The notes under the pieces are model-generated. The model did not search any database, was not told where the DNA came from, and saw nothing but the letters and a program-made list of their open reading frames with translations. Shown here one piece after another: positions 18,313 through 50,541 of a DNA stretch of 64,000 nucleotides; within the stretch, counting starts at the first letter, position 1, and each line of letters begins with the position of its first letter. A program made the translations under genes and the position numbers. Origin of the DNA: Ruminococcus flavefaciens (lineage in GTDB: Bacteria > Bacillota > Clostridia > Oscillospirales > Ruminococcaceae); the NCBI GenBank assembly GCA_902760805.1, contig CACWHY010000018.1, positions 1 through 64,000 of the forward strand, given 5' to 3'.

Positions 18313-20862
18313 TTATTCAGACAGGAGCTGATCCATCTCAGCCTTAGTGATCGGCAGCTTATCAGCTTTGATGAGCTTAGCATCGACCATCTGGATAGCC
18401 AGAGCGTCAAGGCCGTTTACGCCGCTTGTGCTGTTGTCGATAACGTCAGCATTTATCAGGCCGGACGGAGTCAGGGGGTACTTTGCAGGAAGTGCAGTGT
18501 ACTGGAGGATCGCAACAGCGTCCTGGAGATCCACCTTATCGTCGCTGTTAGCGTCGCCCCAAAGAGGCACATCAGAGCTGAGCACCTCGATCTGTCCGTG
18601 GAGCAGCTCGTTGTTTGCCAGCCTCATTTCTGCGCTGAGCCTTACCTTGTCGCCCACCTTGCAGATCGTCTGGAAGTAGTTGGGGCTCATAAGGCCGAAG
18701 AGGTAAGTCGTATCGTCGATAGTGATAGACTCATCAGTCATAGCTGTAACAGTTCCCTCTACCTCGATATAGTCGGAATACTGAGTCATTCCCAGGATGA
18801 TAGTTACGCTGGAAGCGCTGCTGTTGTTGTACTCGACTAGGCCGTCCTTAACGGTGAAGGTATCGGTAACTCCGCTGTAGGTAGAGCCGGGAGCAGGTGT
18901 GAGGCCGACCTCGTAGCTTCCGTCGGGAAGTCCCATAACGCTGAAGTCGTTCTCAGAGGGGGTCCATCTGATCTCCTCGCCTGCAAGGGTAACGTCCCTT
19001 CCGCCTGCGAATGAAAGGCTTTCAAGAGAAGTGCCGTCCTTGTTCAGGATATAGCACATAGCGTTGTTATCGCCCTCTACCTTGACGGTAACGCAGGCAG
19101 TTGATGCGGACTTCTTTACCAGAGGCACCTTGTCCTCGATGACCTCGCCTGCCTTTGAGAAGGCATAGCCGCCGGAAGCTGCTGTACACTCATAGCCTGC
19201 CGGGAGAGCTGTGATGCTCAGGCGGTAGCCGACGCCGTCAATGTAGTCAGTGGTGAACTCGTGAGCCTCGCTTGTGGACTCCCACTCGTCAACAACGGCC
19301 TCGGGCTCGCTGATAGCGATGAGCTTAGCTTTAACGCCGGGAACGATATTTCCGTCCTCGTCAACAAAGGAGATGCTGAGCTTGCACTTCTCGTCCTGTA
19401 CGATCTCGCCGTTTGCAGCAGCGATCTCCTGAGGATAAACTGTAACGCCGTCGCCGATGGAGGAAACTACCTTGCCTGTCTGGAACTCAGAGAACAGACC
19501 GGCGGCAGCTCCTACCAGACCGATCTGATAGTCCAGAGCGACCTCGTTGGAGGTGGAGTCCTTGGCATCGTACTTTCTGAATGTGGAGAAATCCTGACCT
19601 GTGGGGCCTCCGCAGAGGGCTCCGTAGAGCACACGGCTGTCGGGGATGCTTGCGTAGTTTCCGTCCCAGCTGTTCCACTTGCTCCAGGTGCTGTCATCGT
19701 TGAGGTTTGAGGCGCTTCTGTGGTGAGGAGAAGTTGCAGCCACGTCGTTATAGCCAACTACCAGGCAAACGTTAGCGTTGTTGTCGCCCAGGATGTAGTT
19801 CATCTGCTTTTTGCACCAGTCGGAGAAATCGGCTCCGGACTTGTCCTTGTGCTTTGTAGCCACCATTGCGCAGGTCTGCATGAGAGTGTTGTGACGGGCG
19901 CTTCCCCAGGAATTCATGATGTAGAACTGGTTGGCGTTCTTGTCGGTGACGCTCTTGATGTAGTTCACGGGAGCAGTCCAGTTGCCGGTGATCTCGGCAT
20001 TTATGAGAGCCGCACCCAGCCAAACTCCGCCATAGTAGTAATCGTTGACCCAATCGTTGGTGCCGCTGGTGTCCTTGCTGTTGGCCTCAAGGTACTTCTG
20101 CTCGTTGGTGGCAAGGTAGAGCCAGCCGGCAGCCCAGGCGATGTCGTCCTCAACGCTCTTGTCGGAGTAGGTCATCTGCTCCGTGGTCATTTTGCGGTAT
20201 TTCGCAGCAAAATCGTAAAGGGCAACAGCGTATTTCAGGTCCTCCTCGCTGCCGAAGTTGATGTAGCTCTGAGCCAGAGCCGCAGCATACTGAGCAGCAA
20301 CATCGCTGGCGCCGTTAGTGGTGGAGTAGGTCTCGTCGGAGCCGTGATCCCACATTTTCTCGGCATTCTGCCAGATACCGTGGTCACGTCCGTCGTCGCC
20401 TATCTCGTAAACGAAGTTCGTAACGTTGCCGCTTCCGTCCAGAGTTGTGCTGTTGCGGAAAAATCTTGCGAACTCGTCAGAGATGTCCTTGACGTGGGCG
20501 TCTGTGCCGGTCTTCTTGAAATCATCGGCGTACTCATAGTACATCCAGCCCAGAGTTGAGGCGGTGAAGCCTTCTGTGAGGCCGCACTTGATGTGGTCGC
20601 CTGCGTCGTGGAAGCCGCCCTCGCAGACGTCACCTGAGTGGCAGTTGTCACGCCATGAGAAGTGTGAGAGCTCTCCTGCGTTCTTTCCGCAGTAGTTAGC
20701 GTCGAAGAAGTAGAGCGAATACTGGAGGAGCCTTGCGTAGTTGTCGAGATCCAGATCGGCAGCCGATGCGGTAGGTACAGCGGTGACGGCGGAGGTCACT
20801 GACATAACAGCGGCAGCGCCGGCTGCGGCCAGCTTCTTCAGTAAGCTGTTGTGGGTTTTCAT
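18313..20862 (-). CDS. Cellulosomal GH9 cellulase with C-terminal dockerin
   Basis: 849 aa, secreted (signal peptide cleaved near residue 34). The GH9 catalytic module starts almost directly after it: Asp86 and Asp89 in 'GGFHDAGDH', His380-His381 in 'TSPHHRSAS', and the acid Glu440 in 'SNEVALDYQIGLVG'. These match the GH9 catalytic set, so it should cut beta-1,4-glucan. Residues about 470-765 hold two or more beta-type modules of unclear family; no CBM3c is recognised. Residues 768-849 are a type-I dockerin with two EF-hand loops ('DANSDDKVDLQDA' and 'NADVIDNSTSGVNGLDA'), so it should dock on a scaffoldin. AGAGAGGATG precedes the ATG. Confidence 0.95.
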   Translation of the reverse strand: MKTHNSLLKKLAAAGAAAVMSVTSAVTAVPTASAADLDLDNYARLLQYSLYFFDANYCGKNAGELSHFSWRDNCHSGDVCEGGFHDAGDHIKCGLTEGFTASTLGWMYYEYADDFKKTGTDAHVKDISDEFARFFRNSTTLDGSGNVTNFVYEIGDDGRDHGIWQNAEKMWDHGSDETYSTTNGASDVAAQYAAALAQSYINFGSEEDLKYAVALYDFAAKYRKMTTEQMTYSDKSVEDDIAWAAGWLYLATNEQKYLEANSKDTSGTNDWVNDYYYGGVWLGAALINAEITGNWTAPVNYIKSVTDKNANQFYIMNSWGSARHNTLMQTCAMVATKHKDKSGADFSDWCKKQMNYILGDNNANVCLVVGYNDVAATSPHHRSASNLNDDSTWSKWNSWDGNYASIPDSRVLYGALCGGPTGQDFSTFRKYDAKDSTSNEVALDYQIGLVGAAAGLFSEFQTGKVVSSIGDGVTVYPQEIAAANGEIVQDEKCKLSISFVDEDGNIVPGVKAKLIAISEPEAVVDEWESTSEAHEFTTDYIDGVGYRLSITALPAGYECTAASGGYAFSKAGEVIEDKVPLVKKSASTACVTVKVEGDNNAMCYILNKDGTSLESLSFAGGRDVTLAGEEIRWTPSENDFSVMGLPDGSYEVGLTPAPGSTYSGVTDTFTVKDGLVEYNNSSASSVTIILGMTQYSDYIEVEGTVTAMTDESITIDDTTYLFGLMSPNYFQTICKVGDKVRLSAEMRLANNELLHGQIEVLSSDVPLWGDANSDDKVDLQDAVAILQYTALPAKYPLTPSGLINADVIDNSTSGVNGLDALAIQMVDAKLIKADKLPITKAEMDQLLSE

Positions 20863-21109: not shown

Positions 21110-22072
21110 TCATTTTTCTTTATTTTTGAATTCGGCGATGATGTATCTCGGCCTAGCCTTGACCTCTGAGTAGATCTTGCCGATGTATTCGCCGATGATG
21201 CCCAGGCACAATAGCTGAAGTCCTCCCACCAGCCAGATCGAGCACATCGTGCTTGACCAGCCCGGCTCTGAGAAGCCGCCGATCTTTGCGATGAATGCCC
21301 ACGCCAAGGCCACCACGCTGAGCGCTGACATAAGGCAGCCCAGACCGGTGATCAGCTTCAGGGGCTTAGTGCTGAATGAGGTTATGCCGTTTATGGCGAA
21401 GGACAGCATTTTTTTCAGGGGGTACTTGCTCTCTCCGGCGAAGCGCTCCGCACGCTCATAGTAGACGCAGCAGCTCTTGAAGCCGATCAGGGGCACCATT
21501 CCTCTCAGGAAGAGGTTGACCTCATGGAATTCCCCCAATTCCTGTAGGACCCTGCTGCTCATCAGGCGGAAATCAGCGTGGTTGTACACCACGTCAGCGC
21601 CCATGGTCTTCATGAATTTGTAGAAGCCCTCTGCCGTAAATCTCTTGAAAAAGGTGTCGGTATCTCGGGCGCTGCGGACGCCGTATACCACATGATTGCC
21701 CTCGTAGAATTTTTCCACCATAGCGTCGATAGTGTTGATGTCGTCCTGAAGGTCGGCGTCCATGGTTATGGCCATGTCGCACAGGCCCTTCACGGTCATA
21801 AGGCCGGCGAGGACGGCGTTTTGGTGACCTGCGTTATGAGCCAGATCTATACCGGAAAAGAAGTCCGGGTCGCTTTCGTGGAGCTTGCATATCAGCTGCC
21901 AGGTGTTGTCCTTAGAGCCGTCATTGACGAATACCACCCGGCTCTCACCGGAGATCAGCCCACGCTGGATCAGGGACTGATATTTTTCCTTGAGGCGCCT
22001 TGAGGTCTCGGGGAGCACCTCCTCCTCATTGTAGCAAGGTACCACCATATACAGCTTCCGTGGCTCTTCCAT
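21110..22072 (-). CDS. GT2 glycosyltransferase, polyprenyl-phosphate sugar transferase type
   Basis: 320 aa. An N-terminal GT-A domain carries 'YMVVPCYNEEEVLPE', the nucleotide Asp in 'VFVNDGSKD', and the metal motif 'TMDADLQDD'. Two C-terminal membrane helices (about 235-260 and 275-300) fit the DPM1/GtrB group that loads sugar onto undecaprenyl phosphate at the inner membrane. It has its own promoter (22132-22104) and AAAGGAG. It is paralogous to the gene at 42704-43669. The sugar and acceptor are unknown. Confidence 0.88.
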   Translation of the reverse strand: MEEPRKLYMVVPCYNEEEVLPETSRRLKEKYQSLIQRGLISGESRVVFVNDGSKDNTWQLICKLHESDPDFFSGIDLAHNAGHQNAVLAGLMTVKGLCDMAITMDADLQDDINTIDAMVEKFYEGNHVVYGVRSARDTDTFFKRFTAEGFYKFMKTMGADVVYNHADFRLMSSRVLQELGEFHEVNLFLRGMVPLIGFKSCCVYYERAERFAGESKYPLKKMLSFAINGITSFSTKPLKLITGLGCLMSALSVVALAWAFIAKIGGFSEPGWSSTMCSIWLVGGLQLLCLGIIGEYIGKIYSEVKARPRYIIAEFKNKEK

Positions 22073-22144: not shown

Positions 22145-23128
22145 TTATTTTTTGATGCGGCAAAGGCTTGCCTCGCCGGAGGAAAGGTGGATCTCCTCGC
22201 CGCTGTCCAGCCGCACGATCAGGTTTGCGCTGTCGTCTATGCCGACTGCCTCTCCTTCAATGGGACGAGTTCCCAGATTTGCGGTGATCCTGTTTCCGGT
22301 GAGGAGCTCTCTGCTCCGGTAATCCTCCAGAAAGCCGCCGTTTTCGATAGTTGCAAGGTATCTTTCCAGCTGGCTGAGGATCTCTCCGCAGAGCCTGCTC
22401 CTGTCCAGTTTTTTGCCGCAGGCGTCCTCAATGGAGGTGGCCACGGTCTGGAGCTGAGTGTCTAGGGCAGACTTTACACTGCGCACGTTTATGCCGATGC
22501 CGATAACTGCGTAGTCCAGAGACTTAGCCTCAAGGCCGAAGGAGGCCTCAGTGAGTATTCCGCAGATCTTCCGCCCGTCCATGTACACGTCATTGACCCA
22601 CTTGATCTGGGTCTTGCTGCCGGAGAGCTTCTCCACCGCCACAGCCACAGCGCAGGCCGCCGCCGAAGTCATCATGGGAGCCTGCTCTATGCCGAATTCC
22701 GGCCGCAGGATGATGCTCATGTAGATGCCTGTGCCGGAGGGGGACTCAAAGCTGCGCCCCATGCGTCCCCGGCCGGCGGTCTGCCGGTCAGCCACCACCG
22801 TTGTGCCGTGGACAGCTCCCTGTCCGGCAAGTTCCTTTGCGGCGGCGTTGGTGGAGCCTATCTCGTCGTGGACGAAGAGGGGCCTGCCCAGCTTTTCCGT
22901 GTGAAGAGCCTGAGTTATCAGCTCGGCTGAAAGCCTGTTGTTGTCTCCTGAGAGCCGATAGCCCTTGGCGGTCACCGACTCGATAGTATAGCCCTCGCCC
23001 TCGAGAGCCTTCACTGCCTTCCAGACAGCGTTCCTGCTCACGCTCAGCTGTTCCGCCAAGGCAGAGCCCGATATATAGCCTTCTCCGGCGCCTGCGAGAG
23101 CGCTGAGAAGTGCAGCTTTAACGTTCAT
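22145..23128 (-). CDS. birA: Biotin-protein ligase / biotin operon repressor
   Basis: 327 aa. An N-terminal winged helix (residues about 1-65, 'GSALAEQLSVSRNAVWKAV') is followed by the ligase domain with the biotinyl-AMP motif 'QTAGRGRMGRSFESPSG', then 'KWVNDVYMDGRKICGILTE' and 'GIGINV', and a small SH3-like C-terminal domain. It makes biotinyl-AMP, biotinylates carboxylase carrier protein and can repress biotin genes. It begins 17 nt after the PEP mutase gene, so the two probably share a transcript. Confidence 0.93.
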   Translation of the reverse strand: MNVKAALLSALAGAGEGYISGSALAEQLSVSRNAVWKAVKALEGEGYTIESVTAKGYRLSGDNNRLSAELITQALHTEKLGRPLFVHDEIGSTNAAAKELAGQGAVHGTTVVADRQTAGRGRMGRSFESPSGTGIYMSIILRPEFGIEQAPMMTSAAACAVAVAVEKLSGSKTQIKWVNDVYMDGRKICGILTEASFGLEAKSLDYAVIGIGINVRSVKSALDTQLQTVATSIEDACGKKLDRSRLCGEILSQLERYLATIENGGFLEDYRSRELLTGNRITANLGTRPIEGEAVGIDDSANLIVRLDSGEEIHLSSGEASLCRIKK

Positions 23129-23145
23129 CCTATCACCTCAAACGA

Positions 23146-25158
23146 TCAGTATTCCTCAGGGATCAGGCGTATGATCTCCCCGAAAGGCATACACAGCTCA
23201 TCACATTCCTTGGCACGGTGGTGCTCCAAAATGGAACGAGCGGCGCTCTGCATTGCCGGGAAGCCCGTCCTGGTCAGCTGATTTGCGTAGATCACGATGT
23301 TTATCCCGTGAGAGAGCAGCTCCTCCTCTGTGACCGAGCTGTAGGCCGTGGGAACAGCCACGATCGGCGTGGTCTTGTCTCTTTGGCGGAATTTATCTGC
23401 GAAATCCAGCACCTGTCCGGGTTCGGAGCTTCGGCTGTGGATCATGACAGCATCAGCGCCGGCCTCCACATAGGCAAGGCTCCGGCCGAGAGCGTCCTCC
23501 ACGCCCTTGTCCAGGATCAGGCTCTCGATACGGGCGCAGATCATCATGTCCCTGCCCTTGAGAGCAGCCTTTCCGGCGGCTATTTTTCGGCAAAAATCCT
23601 CAATGTCCGCCTGAGTCTGAGCCGCCTGTGTCCCGAAGAGGGAGTTCCGCTTCAGGCCGGTCTTGTCCTCGATGATCACCATGGAAACTCCCACCCGCTC
23701 CAGAGTTCGCACGTTGTACACGAAGTGCTCCGTGAGGCCGCCGGTGTCGCCGTCGAAGATCACCGGCTTGGTGGTGACCTCCATGATGTCATCCAGAGTC
23801 CTCAGCCGGGAGGTCATGTCCACCAGCTCGATGTCGGGCTTGCCCCTTGCTGTGGAGTCGCACAGTGACGAGATCCACATTGCGTCGAACTGCCTTGCCT
23901 GGCCGTCCTGGAGAATGGCGGTGTTTTCGGCGATGAGCCCGGTAAGACCGCTGTGTGCCTCGATTGCCCGGATCTGGGGCTTCATGGAGAGGAGCCTTTT
24001 CAGGCTTCCCCGGCGAAGCTCCGGCATGGCGGCCTCGGCACGGCTGCGCAGCTCGATCTCGTGGTATTTTTCGTCGTGGGAGTAGGGGAATTCCACCAGC
24101 TTTCCGCCCCAGCCCTCAAGGACCCTGATGACCTCCTCCCGGATCGGCTTCTGGAAGCCCTCACGCCAGTCGTCCCCGTGAACGACTATATCCGGGCGGA
24201 ATCTCTCCAGATTTTCTCGATAGCTGAGAGTATTCTGCTCAACTGCCTGTGAAACTCCCGATATGCTCTCGAACATGGCCTTGCGCTCGGAGAAGGGCAG
24301 CAGCGGCAGCCGCTTGAAGCCGGCAACAGCCTCGTCTGAGAGCACTCCTGCGATCAGTCTTCCCAGCTTAGCGGCACGGCGGATCATCTTGATGTGGCCG
24401 CTGTGGATCATGTCTGTGGAGAAGCACATATACACCACCCGGCGGCTGATCCTTTCCAGCTCAGCGGAGACCTTTTGCAGGTCTGTCGGGTCATCCACCT
24501 CAGCGCAGAGCCGCTCCCCCACGTCAAGGGCGAAGATCCGCTTGGCTGAGATCTGGTTCAGTGCGTCCTCAGCGTAGCGCCTGCGCAGGGAGAGGTCGCT
24601 GCTGGTGCAAAATTCCTCTATTTTTCGCAGCCAGCCTGCCATTTCCTGCTTGGTGAGCCTGTAGAGCGGCTGAGCCGGAAGAGCCTCGCTCCCCAGCTCC
24701 ACTGAGATCTTTTCCACAAGTCCGTCCCTTATCTGCGCCTTGAAATCCTTGGTGGAGCGGTCCGCAGCAGAGCTGACCGCCATGCAGCTTCCCTCAAAGG
24801 AGACTACGTCCTCCAGCACCGACGGCTCGAAGACCAGATCCCCGTGCATGAGGACGATGTCGTCCTGGAGCAGCTCCCGGGCGAGAAAGATCGAGTAGAT
24901 ATAGTTGGTGGAGTCGTACACGGGATTGTGGACGAAGGCTATATTCAGGGAATTTTCCCACTTTTTGCAGTATTCCGTGAGGGCGCTCTCGTGGGCGCCG
25001 GTAGTGATCACGATGTCACGGACGCCGGCCTGCTCGAGAAGGCGGAGCTGGCGGCTGAGGATCGTTTCCCCGGCCAGCTCGGTCATGCACTTTGGCCGGT
25101 CAGCGGTAAGGCTTCCCATACGGCTGCCCAGGCCGGAATTGAGGATAAGAGCTTTCAT
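23146..25158 (-). CDS. pepM: Three-domain phosphoenolpyruvate mutase fused to two nucleotidyltransferases
   Basis: 670 aa, cytoplasmic. Residues 1-about 225: a MobA/LicC-like nucleotidyltransferase ('LNSGLGSRMG', 'RPKCMTEL', 'MHGDLVF'). Residues about 238-365: a TagD-type cytidylyltransferase with the HxGH motif (His252-His255) and 'HGDDWREGF'. Residues about 385-660: PEP mutase with 'FDGDTGG' (468-474) and the diagnostic Glu497-Asp498-Lys499...Asn505-Ser506. The EDK(x5)NS motif separates PEP mutase, which makes the C-P bond of phosphonates, from isocitrate lyase relatives. Fom1 joins a cytidylyltransferase to PEP mutase, and PntC enzymes activate phosphonates as CMP esters; here both transferase types occur together. 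No phosphonopyruvate decarboxylase is near. GGGAGG precedes the ATG. Confidence 0.88.
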   Translation of the reverse strand: MKALILNSGLGSRMGSLTADRPKCMTELAGETILSRQLRLLEQAGVRDIVITTGAHESALTEYCKKWENSLNIAFVHNPVYDSTNYIYSIFLARELLQDDIVLMHGDLVFEPSVLEDVVSFEGSCMAVSSAADRSTKDFKAQIRDGLVEKISVELGSEALPAQPLYRLTKQEMAGWLRKIEEFCTSSDLSLRRRYAEDALNQISAKRIFALDVGERLCAEVDDPTDLQKVSAELERISRRVVYMCFSTDMIHSGHIKMIRRAAKLGRLIAGVLSDEAVAGFKRLPLLPFSERKAMFESISGVSQAVEQNTLSYRENLERFRPDIVVHGDDWREGFQKPIREEVIRVLEGWGGKLVEFPYSHDEKYHEIELRSRAEAAMPELRRGSLKRLLSMKPQIRAIEAHSGLTGLIAENTAILQDGQARQFDAMWISSLCDSTARGKPDIELVDMTSRLRTLDDIMEVTTKPVIFDGDTGGLTEHFVYNVRTLERVGVSMVIIEDKTGLKRNSLFGTQAAQTQADIEDFCRKIAAGKAALKGRDMMICARIESLILDKGVEDALGRSLAYVEAGADAVMIHSRSSEPGQVLDFADKFRQRDKTTPIVAVPTAYSSVTEEELLSHGINIVIYANQLTRTGFPAMQSAARSILEHHRAKECDELCMPFGEIIRLIPEEY

Positions 25159-25205
25159 GTAGACCTCCCTTGGCTGAAATTTCCCCGAAAATATGGGGAA
25201 AAACG

Positions 25206-25239: not shown

Positions 25240-25315
25240 TGGTGGACCTGAAGGGGATCGAACCCTCGGCCTCTGCGTTGCGAACGCAGCGCTCTCCCAA
25301 CTGAGCTACAGGCCC
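25240..25315 (-). tRNA. tRNA-Ala (anticodon CGC)
   Basis: A 76-nt cloverleaf read on the minus strand. The acceptor stem GGGCCTG/CAGGTCC contains the G3:U70 pair that identifies alanine tRNA. The anticodon stem CTGCG/CGCAG encloses the loop TTCGCAA (anticodon CGC, codon GCG). The T-loop has GTTCGATCC, and CCA is encoded. It has its own promoter and terminator. Confidence 0.97.
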
Positions 25316-25354: not shown

Positions 25355-25419
25355 TATCTTTAGCAGAAAGCGGCCGCAGCTTATGGTGGGGCAGGGCTTT
25401 GTGCGATCTCTCCACAAAG

Positions 25420-25469
25420 TTTTCAACTCAGTGTTGAAAATCATGTTTAGTGTCCAAAAATACACTAAA
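25420..25469. promoter_or_regulatory. Two perfect inverted repeats upstream of the protease promoter
   Basis: TTTTCAAC-TCAGT-GTTGAAAA (25420-25440) and TTTAGTGT-CCAAAAAT-ACACTAAA (25446-25469) are both perfect 8-bp arms. They lie 34-83 nt upstream of the -35 box of the protease-dockerin gene. They look like binding sites for dimeric regulators; the regulator is unknown. Confidence 0.6.
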
Positions 25470-25502
25470 GGTTGCAAATGTGAACAGATCTTTGATTTTG
25501 TG

Positions 25503-25531
25503 TTGACAAATTGGAGTTCCAGTGTTATGAT
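25503..25531 (+). promoter_or_regulatory. Promoter of the protease-dockerin gene
   Basis: TTGACA (25503-25508), 17-bp spacer, TATGAT (25526-25531), about 80 nt before the start codon. Confidence 0.85.
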
Positions 25532-25610
25532 TAAACCAGATCATACGGCTGGTTATAGGCAAACCGCCGTAATATCGGGAAAACTAAATATATATATCGG
25601 AGGAATCACT

Positions 25611-28469
25611 ATGAAACATCTCAAAAGGCTGACAGCCGCTGTCTCCGCAGCAGCGCTGACCCTCACAGCCCTCCCCCTCACCACAAGCATAGTTTCTGAC
25701 GCTGCGGACGAGTATTCTGTCAGAGATCCCTTCTTCAATTTCAGCTCACAGTACAATTACTATGAGTCTGAGCACTTCCAGTTCATCTGGGGCAATACCG
25801 GTCCAGACTCCGCTAAGGTGACTCAGGAATTCCTGGAAGGCAACGTGAAAAACCTTGAGGCTATCTGGGACGTTTACATGAACGAGCTGTCCAACAGGCC
25901 TCCCTGCGAGTCCGTGGAGACCTACCTCCAGGACGGCAAAAAGTACAAGACCAACTTCTATCTCTCCGGCACAGGCCTTGCAGGTATGCAGGACGATTGG
26001 GCCTATATGTCCTGGGACAGCGGCGGATTTGCGTATATGTTCTGCTGCGTGGACTCTATGAAGGTCGACCCGCCCTCATGGGTGCTGCCCCACGAATTCG
26101 GCCACGTCATGACCGCTCATCAGCTTGGCTGGAACAACAACAAATACTCCTACGCCTGGTGGGAGGCCATCGCTAACTGGTACCGTGAGCAGTACCTCTA
26201 CAGCGACTACAGCACCGACGAGACCGGCCACGGCACGGATTTCTTCCAGACCTATATGCTCAACCTCTGCTTCACCTTCCCCTGCGGCAGAGACTACTAC
26301 GCCTCATGGCCGTTTTTGCAGTACCTCACCGAAAATCCCGACAATTTGGAGGGCTACGGCAAGGACTTCGTGAAGAAGATGCTCCAGGAGGGTCAGGTGG
26401 ACGAGTACCCCTTTGACCAGGTAGAGCGCCTTGCTCCTGCCGATTTTAAGGAAACTCTTGGCAAGTACGCCGCACGCATGGCAGGTCTGGACTTCGCTCA
26501 CGGCGACGCCTACCGTGCAAGGCTCAGCGAGATGCTGGCGGAGCAGGAATGGTACTGGCAGCAGGTATACACCATGCTCCAGCCCGTTGCAGGCAAGGAG
26601 AACACCTACACCGTTCCCACAGAGCGAGCTCCCCAGTTCGCCGGACTGAACATCGTTCCCCTTGAGGTCTCCGGCGGGACCATCACAGCCTCTCTTGAGG
26701 GACTTTCCAGCAAGGAAGGGGCTGACTGGAGAGCCTGTATCGTTCAGCAGGCCGACGACGGAAGCTGCACCTACTCAGATCTTTTCAGCGCCGGCCAGGA
26801 GGTCAGCGTTCCCTATACCGGCGGAAAGGCCTATCTCTCCGTGATAGCTACTCCCGACCTTGACACTATCGAGAAGTACGGCCTGCCGGGAATTTACGAC
26901 AACAACGCCCTGTTCTCCGAGAAGAACGTGCCATTCAACAGCAAGAGCCGCTATCCCTACAGCGTGAAGTTCAGCGACAACGTTTCGATCACTCAGCGCA
27001 AGGTCTCCACAGAGAACAAGAACTGGTGGGAGAACGCCACCTATTCCGCTCATCCCAACGGCGGAGGCCTTGTGGCAAGCACAGCCAAGGTGGACGCATC
27101 AGTTTACGTTGCTCCTGACGCAGTTGTCAAGGGAAACGCCACCGTCACCGGAAACGTAAAACTCCTTGATCACGCAGTTGTCTGCGGAAGTGCAAAGGTC
27201 TCCGGGGACGTGGTGGTCTCCGGCTACGGAATGATCGGCGAGAACGCCACGGTCTCCGGCAATGCCCGTGTGGACGACTTCGGCATCGTCTGCGGAAGAG
27301 CCAACGTAAGCGGCTATGCTCAGGTGATCGAGAGCGCCTGTGTTTACGGGAACACCACCATGCAGGACAAGTCCGTGGCAAAGGGCGTGGCCTTCACTAT
27401 GGCCAACACCAAGTTCTCCGGACAGGGCGTGGGCGACGGCGACCTTTACTCCGACAACGACATCTCCTTCACACAGGGAGTCACCGCCGGCTGGACAAGC
27501 GCTCAGGCCTATGCCAGCAGCCGTCCCTTCACCAAGGATCTGATCCTTGCCTACGACTTCGACCAAGACAGCACATTTACCGCCAGCGACCGCTATTCCT
27601 CCACCTACGCTGTGAACAGCGGCGCAAAGTGGGAGGCTAAGCGCACATCAGCAAATGGCGTGCTCACCTTTGACGGCAGCAGCTGGCTGGACTTCGACCG
27701 CAGCGCTCTCTACGATACGGACGACTTCGAGATACAGCTCTCCTTCCTCACAAGAGAGGGCTCAGACCGTGTGCAGGAGCTGCTCCACATCGGCAATGAT
27801 CTGGATCACATCGATATGTATGTTTCCGGCAGTGACATCGAGGTGGTGAAGGAGGGCTCGCCTGTGTCGGCTAAGGGCGTGATCACTCCCGGAGAGTGGA
27901 CGAAGGTGCGATTCATAGTTGAGGGCGACACGGCAACTCTCATGGTCAACGGCCAGACAGTCGCCACCGAGGCCTGGACTGAAAATGACCGAAATATCCT
28001 GGAGAAGCTGGCTCTGGGCGACCAGACCTCAGCCTATCGCATAGGCGCTGACAGAAACGGCGAAAACGGCCTTAACGGTTCTGTGGACTTCGTGAGATTT
28101 TTCTCCGCAAAGTCCGATGAGCCTGCCGAGGTCTACACCGAGAAGGAGGACGTTCAGCAGACGACCGATCCCACCACTGAGCCGCCTACAGATCCTCCCA
28201 CAGAGCCGGGACTTACTCCTGATTGGGGCGACGCAAACTGCGACGGCAACGTAAATCTCAACGATGCAGTTGCGATCCTCCAGTACGCAGCTCTCAAGGA
28301 GAAATACCCCCTCACTGAGCAGGGCATGGTGAACGCCGACATCGTAGACAACGGCACCAGCGGCGTAAACGGCATGGACGCTCTGGCTATCCAGATGATC
28401 GACGCCGAGCTCCTTAAAATTGGCGAGCTCCCCACGACCAAGAGCTACATGGATCAGCAGATGAAGTAA
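25611..28469 (+). CDS. Dockerin-bearing HExxH metalloprotease-like protein with beta-helix and lectin-like modules
   Basis: 952 aa, secreted (signal peptide about 1-32). Residues about 40-290: a peptidase-like domain with His161-Glu-Phe-Gly-His165 and Glu185 in 'WWEAIANWY', a gluzincin zinc set; the layout recalls the Svx/AvrXca-type (DUF6055) family. Residues about 490-590: hexapeptide-like 'GNATVTG', 'GSAKVSGDVVVSG', 'GNARVDD' repeats expected to form a beta-helix. Residues about 640-830: a concanavalin/LamG-like domain ('LILAYDFDQD', 'GVLTFDGSSWLDF'). Then a TTDPTTEPPTDPPTEP linker and a type-I dockerin (about 873-950). GGAGGA precedes ATG 25611. It would be a cellulosome component acting on protein or a glycoprotein; the substrate is unknown. 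Confidence 0.85.
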   Translation: MKHLKRLTAAVSAAALTLTALPLTTSIVSDAADEYSVRDPFFNFSSQYNYYESEHFQFIWGNTGPDSAKVTQEFLEGNVKNLEAIWDVYMNELSNRPPCESVETYLQDGKKYKTNFYLSGTGLAGMQDDWAYMSWDSGGFAYMFCCVDSMKVDPPSWVLPHEFGHVMTAHQLGWNNNKYSYAWWEAIANWYREQYLYSDYSTDETGHGTDFFQTYMLNLCFTFPCGRDYYASWPFLQYLTENPDNLEGYGKDFVKKMLQEGQVDEYPFDQVERLAPADFKETLGKYAARMAGLDFAHGDAYRARLSEMLAEQEWYWQQVYTMLQPVAGKENTYTVPTERAPQFAGLNIVPLEVSGGTITASLEGLSSKEGADWRACIVQQADDGSCTYSDLFSAGQEVSVPYTGGKAYLSVIATPDLDTIEKYGLPGIYDNNALFSEKNVPFNSKSRYPYSVKFSDNVSITQRKVSTENKNWWENATYSAHPNGGGLVASTAKVDASVYVAPDAVVKGNATVTGNVKLLDHAVVCGSAKVSGDVVVSGYGMIGENATVSGNARVDDFGIVCGRANVSGYAQVIESACVYGNTTMQDKSVAKGVAFTMANTKFSGQGVGDGDLYSDNDISFTQGVTAGWTSAQAYASSRPFTKDLILAYDFDQDSTFTASDRYSSTYAVNSGAKWEAKRTSANGVLTFDGSSWLDFDRSALYDTDDFEIQLSFLTREGSDRVQELLHIGNDLDHIDMYVSGSDIEVVKEGSPVSAKGVITPGEWTKVRFIVEGDTATLMVNGQTVATEAWTENDRNILEKLALGDQTSAYRIGADRNGENGLNGSVDFVRFFSAKSDEPAEVYTEKEDVQQTTDPTTEPPTDPPTEPGLTPDWGDANCDGNVNLNDAVAILQYAALKEKYPLTEQGMVNADIVDNGTSGVNGMDALAIQMIDAELLKIGELPTTKSYMDQQMK

Positions 28470-48675: not shown

Positions 48676-48696
48676 TAAATGAGAGGGGAAATTTCT

Positions 48697-50541
48697 ATGA
48701 AGTATTTTTCTAAGGCAATAGCAGCTGTTGCTGCCGCAGCTATGACGCTGTCGGGCTCTGCTGCTCTGCCGGGAGCTCTGTATGCAGCTCCCATGACAGC
48801 ATCTGCTGTTGATGACACAAATGACGACTGGCTCCACGCAAAGGGAAGCCGACTTTACGACATGAACGGCAACGAGGTGTGGCTCACCGGCGCAAACTGG
48901 TTCGGCTTCAACTGCACCGAGTGCGTTCCTCACTACCTCTGGAGCGGCGACATCGACGACATGGTGAAGGACATCGCAGACCACGGCGTGAATGTGCTCC
49001 GTCTGCCTGTTTCCACCGAGCTGCTCTACAACTGGATGATCGGCAACCCCGATCCTATCGCCAGCGTTAACCCCAACGACGATCCCAACTATCCGATCAA
49101 CGTTGACCTGATCAACCCCGACGGCTCTATCGCCAACAGCCAGCAGACCTTTGATGTGCTCCTGGCTAAGTGCAAGAAGTACGGCGTAAAGTGCTTCATC
49201 GACATCCACAGCCCTGAGTCCAACAACTCCGGACACAACTACGGCCTGTGGTACGGCAAGAGCTTCAAGGGACGTGACGGCAAGAATGTTGAGGTAACTA
49301 CCGATGTTTGGATTGAGACACTTGCTTGGTGCGCCGACCACTACAAGGGCGACGATACCCTGATCGGCTTCGACCTGAAGAACGAGCCTCACAGTAAGTA
49401 CGGCGGAGCTCCTATCGACGCTATCTGGGACGATTCTGATGCGCCCAACAACTGGAAGAAGGCCGCTCAGGACTGCGCAGATGCTATCCTTGCAAAAAAT
49501 CCCAACGCACTCATCCTCATCGAGGGAGTTGAGGGCTTTGAGGGACACGGCGCTTGGTGGGGCGGAAACCTCCGTGGCGTTGCGAAGTACCCTGTTCTGC
49601 CTGAGTCCGGCACATCACAGATCGTTTATTCTCCCCATGATTACGGCCCGGTAGTAAGTGACCAGCCATGGTTCCACAAGGACTTCACCGAGCAGACCCT
49701 TCTGGACGACTATTGGTACGATACATGGGCATATCTGGTCGACAAGGATATGTACCCGCTGCTGATCGGCGAGTGGGGCGGAAGACTTGACGGCGGCGAC
49801 AACGAGAAGTGGCTGGGTCTCCTCCGTGACTACATGATCAAAAACCACATCAACCACACCTTCTGGTGCCTGAACGACGACTCCGGCGATACAGGCGGAC
49901 TTTGGAAGGACATCCAGTTCGGCGTAACAAGAGCAGCTGACGGCACTATCCAGGCAAAGACGACTATCAACTGGGACGAGGAGAAGTACGATACCTACTA
50001 CTATCCCGCTATCTGGAAGACCCTTACCAGCAAGAAGCCCATCGGCCTTGACCACCAGGTGGCTCTTGGAAAGGACGGCATCTCTCTGAACGACTTCTAC
50101 GCAAGCTACGCCAGCAGCGAGGGAAGCAACCTTGACGGCGGCACAAAGTCCTCCGGCAAGATCGTTGAGCCCACAGACGAGCCCAAGGTCACAACAGCTC
50201 CCCCTGTTACAACTGCAAAGGCAACTACCACAGCAGCAGTCACTACCGCAGCAGTTACAACAACGGTTTTTACGCCATCGTCCGGAAACGAAGATCTGGG
50301 CGACGCAAACGTTGACGGTAAGGTGGATCTGAACGATGCAGTCGCTATCCTTCAGTATGTGGCTCTTCCGGCCAAGTACAAGCTCTCCGATGAGGGCGTT
50401 GACAACGCAGACATAATTGACAGAGGCACCAGCGGAGTAAACGGCAAGGACGCTCTTGCTGTCCAGATGGTGGACTCTAAGCTGATCAGTACAGAAGAGC
50501 TCCCCCTGACAAGTGCTCAGATGGAGAGCCGTCTCAAGTAA
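48697..50541 (+). CDS. Cellulosomal GH5 endoglucanase with dockerin
   Basis: 614 aa, secreted (signal about 1-42). The GH5 barrel fills about 45-460: 'LTGANWFGFNCTE', the acid/base Glu230 in 'GFDLKNEPH' and the nucleophile Glu359 in 'LLIGEWGGRLD', with His in 'VYSPHDYG'. A Thr/Pro/Ala linker (about 490-530) leads to a type-I dockerin (about 534-612) with 'DANVDGKVDLNDAVAILQ' and 'SGVNGKDALAVQ'. It should cut internal beta-1,4-glucan bonds on the scaffoldin. GAGAGGGG precedes ATG 48697. Confidence 0.95.
   Translation: MKYFSKAIAAVAAAAMTLSGSAALPGALYAAPMTASAVDDTNDDWLHAKGSRLYDMNGNEVWLTGANWFGFNCTECVPHYLWSGDIDDMVKDIADHGVNVLRLPVSTELLYNWMIGNPDPIASVNPNDDPNYPINVDLINPDGSIANSQQTFDVLLAKCKKYGVKCFIDIHSPESNNSGHNYGLWYGKSFKGRDGKNVEVTTDVWIETLAWCADHYKGDDTLIGFDLKNEPHSKYGGAPIDAIWDDSDAPNNWKKAAQDCADAILAKNPNALILIEGVEGFEGHGAWWGGNLRGVAKYPVLPESGTSQIVYSPHDYGPVVSDQPWFHKDFTEQTLLDDYWYDTWAYLVDKDMYPLLIGEWGGRLDGGDNEKWLGLLRDYMIKNHINHTFWCLNDDSGDTGGLWKDIQFGVTRAADGTIQAKTTINWDEEKYDTYYYPAIWKTLTSKKPIGLDHQVALGKDGISLNDFYASYASSEGSNLDGGTKSSGKIVEPTDEPKVTTAPPVTTAKATTTAAVTTAAVTTTVFTPSSGNEDLGDANVDGKVDLNDAVAILQYVALPAKYKLSDEGVDNADIIDRGTSGVNGKDALAVQMVDSKLISTEELPLTSAQMESRLK

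Follow-up and report, generated by a model that had tools for sequence, protein, structure and literature searches.

The early enzymes of the fosfomycin pathway are a PEP mutase joined to a cytidylyltransferase (Fom1), Ppd and Fe-ADH. The protein that we describe here likewise joins a cytidylyltransferase to a PEP mutase, and its cytidylyltransferase part shares 53% identity, across 123 columns, with 5x3d, a HEP-CMP-bound structure of Fom1 from Streptomyces wedmorensis. It differs from Fom1 in an extra N-terminal LicC-like domain, and in surroundings that are of a lipid or glycan type rather than fosfomycin genes. The fold and catalytic motifs of this N-terminal domain are common to PntC and LicC, the AEP and phosphocholine cytidylyltransferases, but the fusion has His105 where Tde-PntC has Glu104, a residue that PMC6697681 puts at the AEP amine.

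How common such a domain order is was a question raised by an earlier note on this DNA. The architecture is already in print and is not rare, since 42 of the 1485 Ppm proteins surveyed by Rice et al. (2019; PMC6697681) are triple fusions, with the same PF12804, PF01467 and PF13714 in one chain. That paper, as far as its accessible text goes, characterises AEP enzymes and assigns no pathway to triple fusions. What is new here is that the triple fusion is tied to Ppd and Fe-ADH, not to AEPT. A further point of comparison is the Kennedy pathway, in which a CDP-alcohol phosphotransferase likewise acts after a cytidylyltransferase; among solved structures, CEPT1/CPT1 come closest to a phosphotransferase encoded in the gene cluster described below. 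The system considered here differs in that its head group would be a phosphonate and not a phosphate, in being bacterial, and in having extra genes for a radical SAM protein, an acyl ligase and an acyltransferase.

Results

Architecture and conservation of the triple fusion

The window, that is, the whole stretch of DNA analysed, comprises 64,000 nucleotides of a Ruminococcus flavefaciens genome (G000 below). The earlier note had recognised in one of its genes a LicC/PntC-like domain, an HxGH cytidylyltransferase and a PEP mutase with an EDK...NS motif; Pfam, NCBIfam and solved relatives bear out all three identities, and the motif is present (Table 1). In a single chain, PF12804, PF01467 and PF13714 all score above gathering (NTP_transf_3 at residues 3-121, CTP_transf_like at 249-343, PEP_mutase at 387-644), and the NCBIfam model TIGR02320 (PEP_mutase) gives 376.7 bits against a cut-off of 319.55. 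The solved relatives are the Fom1 cytidylyltransferase 5x3d, the PEP mutases 5unc and 1m1b, and LicC 1jyk. An AlphaFold2 model from 32 alignment rows (mean pLDDT 85.2, pTM 0.72) matches 5x3d with an rmsd of 1.3 over the 123 columns and LicC 1jyk with an rmsd of 2.8.

Table 1. Features of the fusion gene and of other loci in the same genome; coordinates without a prefix are positions in the window.
Feature	Coordinates	Strand	Remarks
Triple-fusion gene, LicC/PntC-like + Fom1-like CyTase + PEP mutase	23146..25158	minus	670 aa, ATG start
Probable ribosome-binding site GGGAGG	25164..25169	minus	5-base spacer to ATG of fusion gene
LicC/PntC-like nucleotidyltransferase domain, residues 1-236	24451..25158	minus	Pfam PF12804 46.7 bits; LicC 1jyk E 4.4e-10
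His105 codon in LicC-like domain	24844..24846	minus	aligns with Tde-PntC Glu104
Fom1-like cytidylyltransferase (CyTase) domain, residues 237-372	24043..24450	minus	Pfam PF01467; likeness to 5x3d
HSGH motif of CyTase domain, residues 252-255	24394..24405	minus	HxGH form
PEP mutase domain, residues 373-670	23149..24042	minus	TIGR02320 above cut-off
EDKTGLKRNS, PEP mutase signature, residues 497-506	23641..23670	minus	fits EDKxxxxxNS
birA	22145-23128		neighbour of fusion gene
GT2	21110-22072		neighbour of fusion gene
tRNA-Ala (CGC)	25240-25315	minus	directly upstream of fusion gene
Ppd	C2:97230-98336		single copy in G000
Fe-ADH	C2:98348-99463		adjoins Ppd
Five-gene cluster, contig C2	L066:14669-19555	divergent from Ppd/Fe-ADH	Acyltransferase, AMP-binding ligase, B12-binding radical SAM, CDP-OH_P_transf, 208-aa protein
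LicD	C11:74854-75528		only LicD in G000

Catalytic residues are retained across relatives. Among 85 distinct triple-fusion sequences, the window's included, the LicC-domain catalytic motifs are kept in 85/85, as are H252 and H255 of the HxGH motif and E497, D498, K499, N505 and S506 of the PEP mutase; G254 is kept in 82 and replaced by Ala in three (HSAH in L031). The C-terminal domain is likely a PEP mutase that converts PEP to phosphonopyruvate, and we propose that the LicC/PntC-like domain is a HEP cytidylyltransferase. The idea that the second nucleotidyltransferase is a dead remnant is unsupported, the motifs of both nucleotidyltransferase domains being conserved.

Of 60 genus genomes sampled, G000 included, 24 match the fusion. 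In seven the match spans the entire chain and in 15 just CyTase and PEP mutase (in G057 from residue 178); G005 encodes a PEP mutase plus a LicC-like protein on its own, and G046 has no more than a partial LicC match. Among named genomes, the best 80 of 520 relatives were kept; all 80, from Clostridia and Bacteroidales of rumen and gut, match along the full chain. Some loci belong to both samples, L095 (R. flavefaciens ND2009) being G047 and L097 being G043. Because the whole length is conserved in 7/60 genus genomes (the window's own among them) and in these best 80 named loci, the fusion is neither a chance joining nor a frame artefact. A different joining occurs at L042:1231-3039, where a LicC-like domain is attached to a CobD/HisC-like aminotransferase.

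Partner enzymes on another contig

At the locus itself, the earlier note's picture holds: birA and a GT2 gene are the nearest genes, and no decarboxylase or transaminase gene is adjacent. Across 20 other loci compared, birA clustered with no ORF, and the GT2 solely with a further GT2 encoded in the window, so neither was retained as a partner. Elsewhere in the window (18313-20862, 25383-28469 and 48679-50541) lie genes for large secreted enzymes that, from their sequence, have dockerin-like C-termini, as in cellulosome-forming Ruminococcus.

The label 'orphan' given to the PEP mutase does not hold for the genome as a whole: the partner genes lie on contig C2. A search for ppd and AEP transaminase, which the earlier note had suggested, succeeded for the former, a single Ppd (TIGR03297, 434.9 bits against a cut-off of 312.5), and gave no TIGR03301 match above cut-off for PhnW/AEPT in G000. 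With Ppd on C2, the irreversible step after PEP mutase is present. The best match of the adjoining Fe-ADH is Phn_Fe-ADH, at 161 bits under the cut-off of 423.7. A TIGR03301 match above cut-off was found in 4 of the 14 genomes queried.

The same partners recur beside the fusion in other genomes. We searched the flanks of the best 80 of 520 named loci by tblastn (E 1e-8, one query per family) and found Ppd in 75/80, Fe-ADH in 75/80 and AEPT in 0/80; hence the fusion marks a HEP route. Ppd was lacking at L104, L107, L146, L166 and L172, the last three of which end shortly past Fe-ADH, and Fe-ADH was lacking at L095, L097, L111, L135 and L162. Within the genus, fusion, Fe-ADH and Ppd stand in a row in G002, G009 and G004, and the fusion is followed by Ppd in G047, G043 and G054. 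The best Fe-ADH homologues of the latter three genomes are 32-34% identical, none of them close, and the ORF list around them gives no evident link that would mark dedicated reductases. It is well supported that the route in G000 would end in reduction, to HEP (2-hydroxyethylphosphonate), and not in transamination. Another type of phosphonate operon in the genus (L037:8872-14975 and L038:9281-15473) begins with a CyTase-PepM gene and ends with Ppd; between them come a YfcE-like phosphoesterase, an epimerase-like protein (judging by its sequence) and a 386-aa protein with no match. It has no AEPT and no Fe-ADH.

In G000, the fusion gene seems to have become separated from the locus of Ppd, Fe-ADH and the five-gene cluster. 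Fusion and Ppd are also spaced apart in L091, and the tRNA-Ala gene upstream of the window's fusion is a possible clue to its separate position. We take C2 as native to G000, with reserve, since the only full-length copies of pnp and aspS in the genome lie there and its G+C rises to the genome norm (0.519) at 180-200 kb; some chance of wrong binning remains because its G+C is otherwise below most of the genome. Six stretches between 1 and 160 kb have G+C of 0.465-0.484 and GC3 of 0.50-0.56; C19 and C22 are also low in G+C, and most other contigs lie at 0.50-0.55. The low-G+C/GC3 stretch, at least 150 kb long (L202, L230, L203, L066, L067, L204, L229), carries ordinary single-copy housekeeping genes.

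Linkage of a five-gene cluster to the probable HEP genes

The five-gene cluster that diverges from Ppd and Fe-ADH in G000 is divergent from the fusion operon itself in G054, G009 and G004. It lies beside a LicC-Fe-ADH fusion in G012, and in G005 a contig end carries part of its fifth gene next to PepM, Ppd and LicC. Among the 60 genus genomes, 11 have the radical SAM gene of the cluster, 11 have HEP-type LicC and 10 have both (Fisher p 1.6e-9, kinship not corrected). Outside the genus, all eight genes (PlsC-like acyltransferase, acyl-AMP ligase, B12-binding radical SAM, CEPT-like phosphotransferase, 208-aa protein, triple fusion, Fe-ADH and Ppd) are found on one strand in L123, with five of seven junctions overlapping and the other two 1 base apart, an apparent single operon. 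The set minus the ligase is found in L152 and in L193 (G388, in which cluster and fusion are both present); these two show the same identities and are possibly the same genome. The flanks of the best 80 of 520 fusion loci contain the cluster in 2/80, with five genes in L123 and four in L152.

The linkage is not universal. In G045 (98% complete) the cluster occurs but a PEP mutase does not, the sole fusion match being 27% over LicC residues 1-111, and the only PEP mutase of G443, which has the cluster, is a two-domain one encoded on a different contig. In G047, G043, G032, G010 and G045, no HEP gene was found near the cluster within the stretch fetched. In a class sample, the radical SAM protein was matched at E 1e-60 in 13/391 genomes, and its surroundings were inspected in 5 of the 12 other genomes, which are G388, G443 and those of L195-L197. 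Tandem runs of three to five related radical SAM genes are present at L195, L196 and L197, with no other cluster genes among those searched for.

The main rival to a lipid product is that CMP-HEP decorates a capsule or wall glycan via a LicD-type transferase, while the cluster serves another head group. LicD-like genes, from queries confirmed as LicD, are found at 28 of the best 80 of 520 fusion loci and at 17 of the 51 loci of at least 20 kb; in G002, which has no cluster, the fusion operon has two LicD genes and one for Polysacc_synt as neighbours. G000 has a LicD as well, but on C11, where it is accompanied by CTP_transf_like and CDP-alcohol phosphotransferase genes of its own and not by phosphonate genes, whereas its Ppd and Fe-ADH adjoin the five-gene cluster, which is present in 10 of the 11 genus genomes with HEP-type LicC. 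We consider a glycan destination unlikely, though well worth keeping in view.

Residues that may indicate the substrate

In the LicC-domain alignment, residue 105 is His in 88/88 triple-fusion rows (85 distinct sequences); the acidic residue at the Glu104 position, a PntC trait, is absent from the fusion. Residue 105 is also His in 4/4 standalone HEP-type LicC proteins, three of which are fused to or beside Fe-ADH and the fourth of which (G005) is beside Ppd, and its position is Glu in 8/8 proteins of AEPT operons. His versus Glu is a suggestive mark of the substrate and not proof, since residue 105 is one among 22 alignment positions that separate HEP-type from AEP-linked LicC.

The second nucleotidyltransferase domain shows a parallel division. 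CyTase residue 282 is K in 78/85 triple fusions, the window's among them, and R in 7/85, and residue 330 is D in 85/85, the window's D330 included; Fom1 likewise carries K and D at these positions. The two-domain CyTase-PEP mutase proteins have N at both in 11/11 aligned (of 15 in the genus sample). G010 and G012 combine an N/N CyTase with a standalone His105 LicC, which suggests that LicC serves HEP there. Judged from these residues and from gene content, HEP is very probably what the fusion activates.

The competing possibility, that AEP or some other phosphonate is what the fusion activates, or that the gene decayed once its operon had broken up, would fit the position of the G000 gene away from Ppd and Fe-ADH, and two nucleotidyltransferases in one chain are unexplained. 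It appears quite improbable to us given that the catalytic motifs of all three domains are conserved in the 85 distinct sequences, with AEPT in none of the best 80 of 520 loci and none above cut-off in G000.

Enzymes encoded by the cluster

The CDP-alcohol phosphotransferase of the cluster matches PF01066 (CDP-OH_P_transf) at 42.3 bits against a cut-off of 22. The residues of the family motif D..DG..AR........G...D...D are invariant in 12 rows. A profile of these 12 proteins puts choline/ethanolamine phosphotransferases at the top, with five sequences at E 5.7e-7 to 5.9e-6, followed by AF2299 (8.2e-5), PssA (1.3e-4), IPCT-DIPPS (4.3e-4), PIS (0.02) and PgsA (0.11); this ranking favours, by a modest margin, transfer of a CMP-activated head group. 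In the 208-aa protein, His28 and Cys126 are invariant in 13/13. A resemblance to a permuted papain/LRAT-like enzyme was considered and not retained, as the protein found no match in a PDB profile search, a Pfam scan or a fold search, the last with a model of pLDDT 52 from 2 alignment rows.

The best named model for the radical SAM protein is HpnR, a hopanoid methylase (131.6 bits, under the cut-off of 650); its one PDB match, 6fd2, is weak (E 0.003). Its B12-binding type, its gene's linkage to Ppd and Fe-ADH, and the equivalence of PEP mutase-CyTase, Ppd and Fe-ADH to the early fosfomycin enzymes would suit an antibiotic-like pathway to a free, fosfomycin-type small molecule, with CMP-HEP methylated as by Fom3 (a precedent found in PMC8158854), but this is the least probable reading of all, as none of the 12 families matched is named Fom3 and the cluster also has acyltransferase, acyl ligase and phosphotransferase genes.

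Discussion

Gene content, linkage, domains and motif conservation were computed, and from them we infer every reaction of the following scheme. The PEP mutase domain of the fusion would convert PEP to phosphonopyruvate, Ppd on C2 would decarboxylate this irreversibly to phosphonoacetaldehyde, and Fe-ADH on C2 would reduce the aldehyde to HEP. CMP-HEP would then be formed by one nucleotidyltransferase domain of the fusion or by both; CMP activation of a phosphonate within one chain, as the earlier note had supposed, is supported as the likely role. The cluster's CDP-alcohol phosphotransferase would transfer the HEP phosphonyl group from CMP-HEP to a diacylglycerol-like lipid to give a phosphonolipid, and the acyltransferase, acyl-AMP ligase and B12-binding radical SAM protein would build or modify that lipid.

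We lean, by somewhat more than even chances, towards the fusion being the entry and activation enzyme of a HEP pathway that passes CMP-HEP to lipid, and the balance tips to a similar degree towards a phosphonolipid as the product. More tentatively, and with the odds a little against it, the eight genes could together make up an undescribed bacterial Kennedy-type pathway to a HEP-glycerolipid, in which the radical SAM protein would alkylate the head group or the acyl chains and the HEP hydroxyl may be acylated. We found no paper joining Ruminococcus, phosphonate and phosphoenolpyruvate mutase, nor one joining Ruminococcus flavefaciens, lipid and phosphonic, and such an operon is named in none among the matches listed, in a search whose coverage mostly excludes subscription literature. 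Phosphonolipids in Burkholderia are mentioned in PMC12723261.

The steps past C-P bond formation in surface phosphonates are described as enigmatic by Rice et al. (PMC6697681). The present results offer a testable route, a HEP branch for which the triple fusion is a marker; His105 versus Glu may predict the substrate, and L123 provides a compact operon that could be expressed whole. If the proposed route is true, the membranes of cellulose-degrading rumen relatives of R. flavefaciens would contain phosphonolipids.
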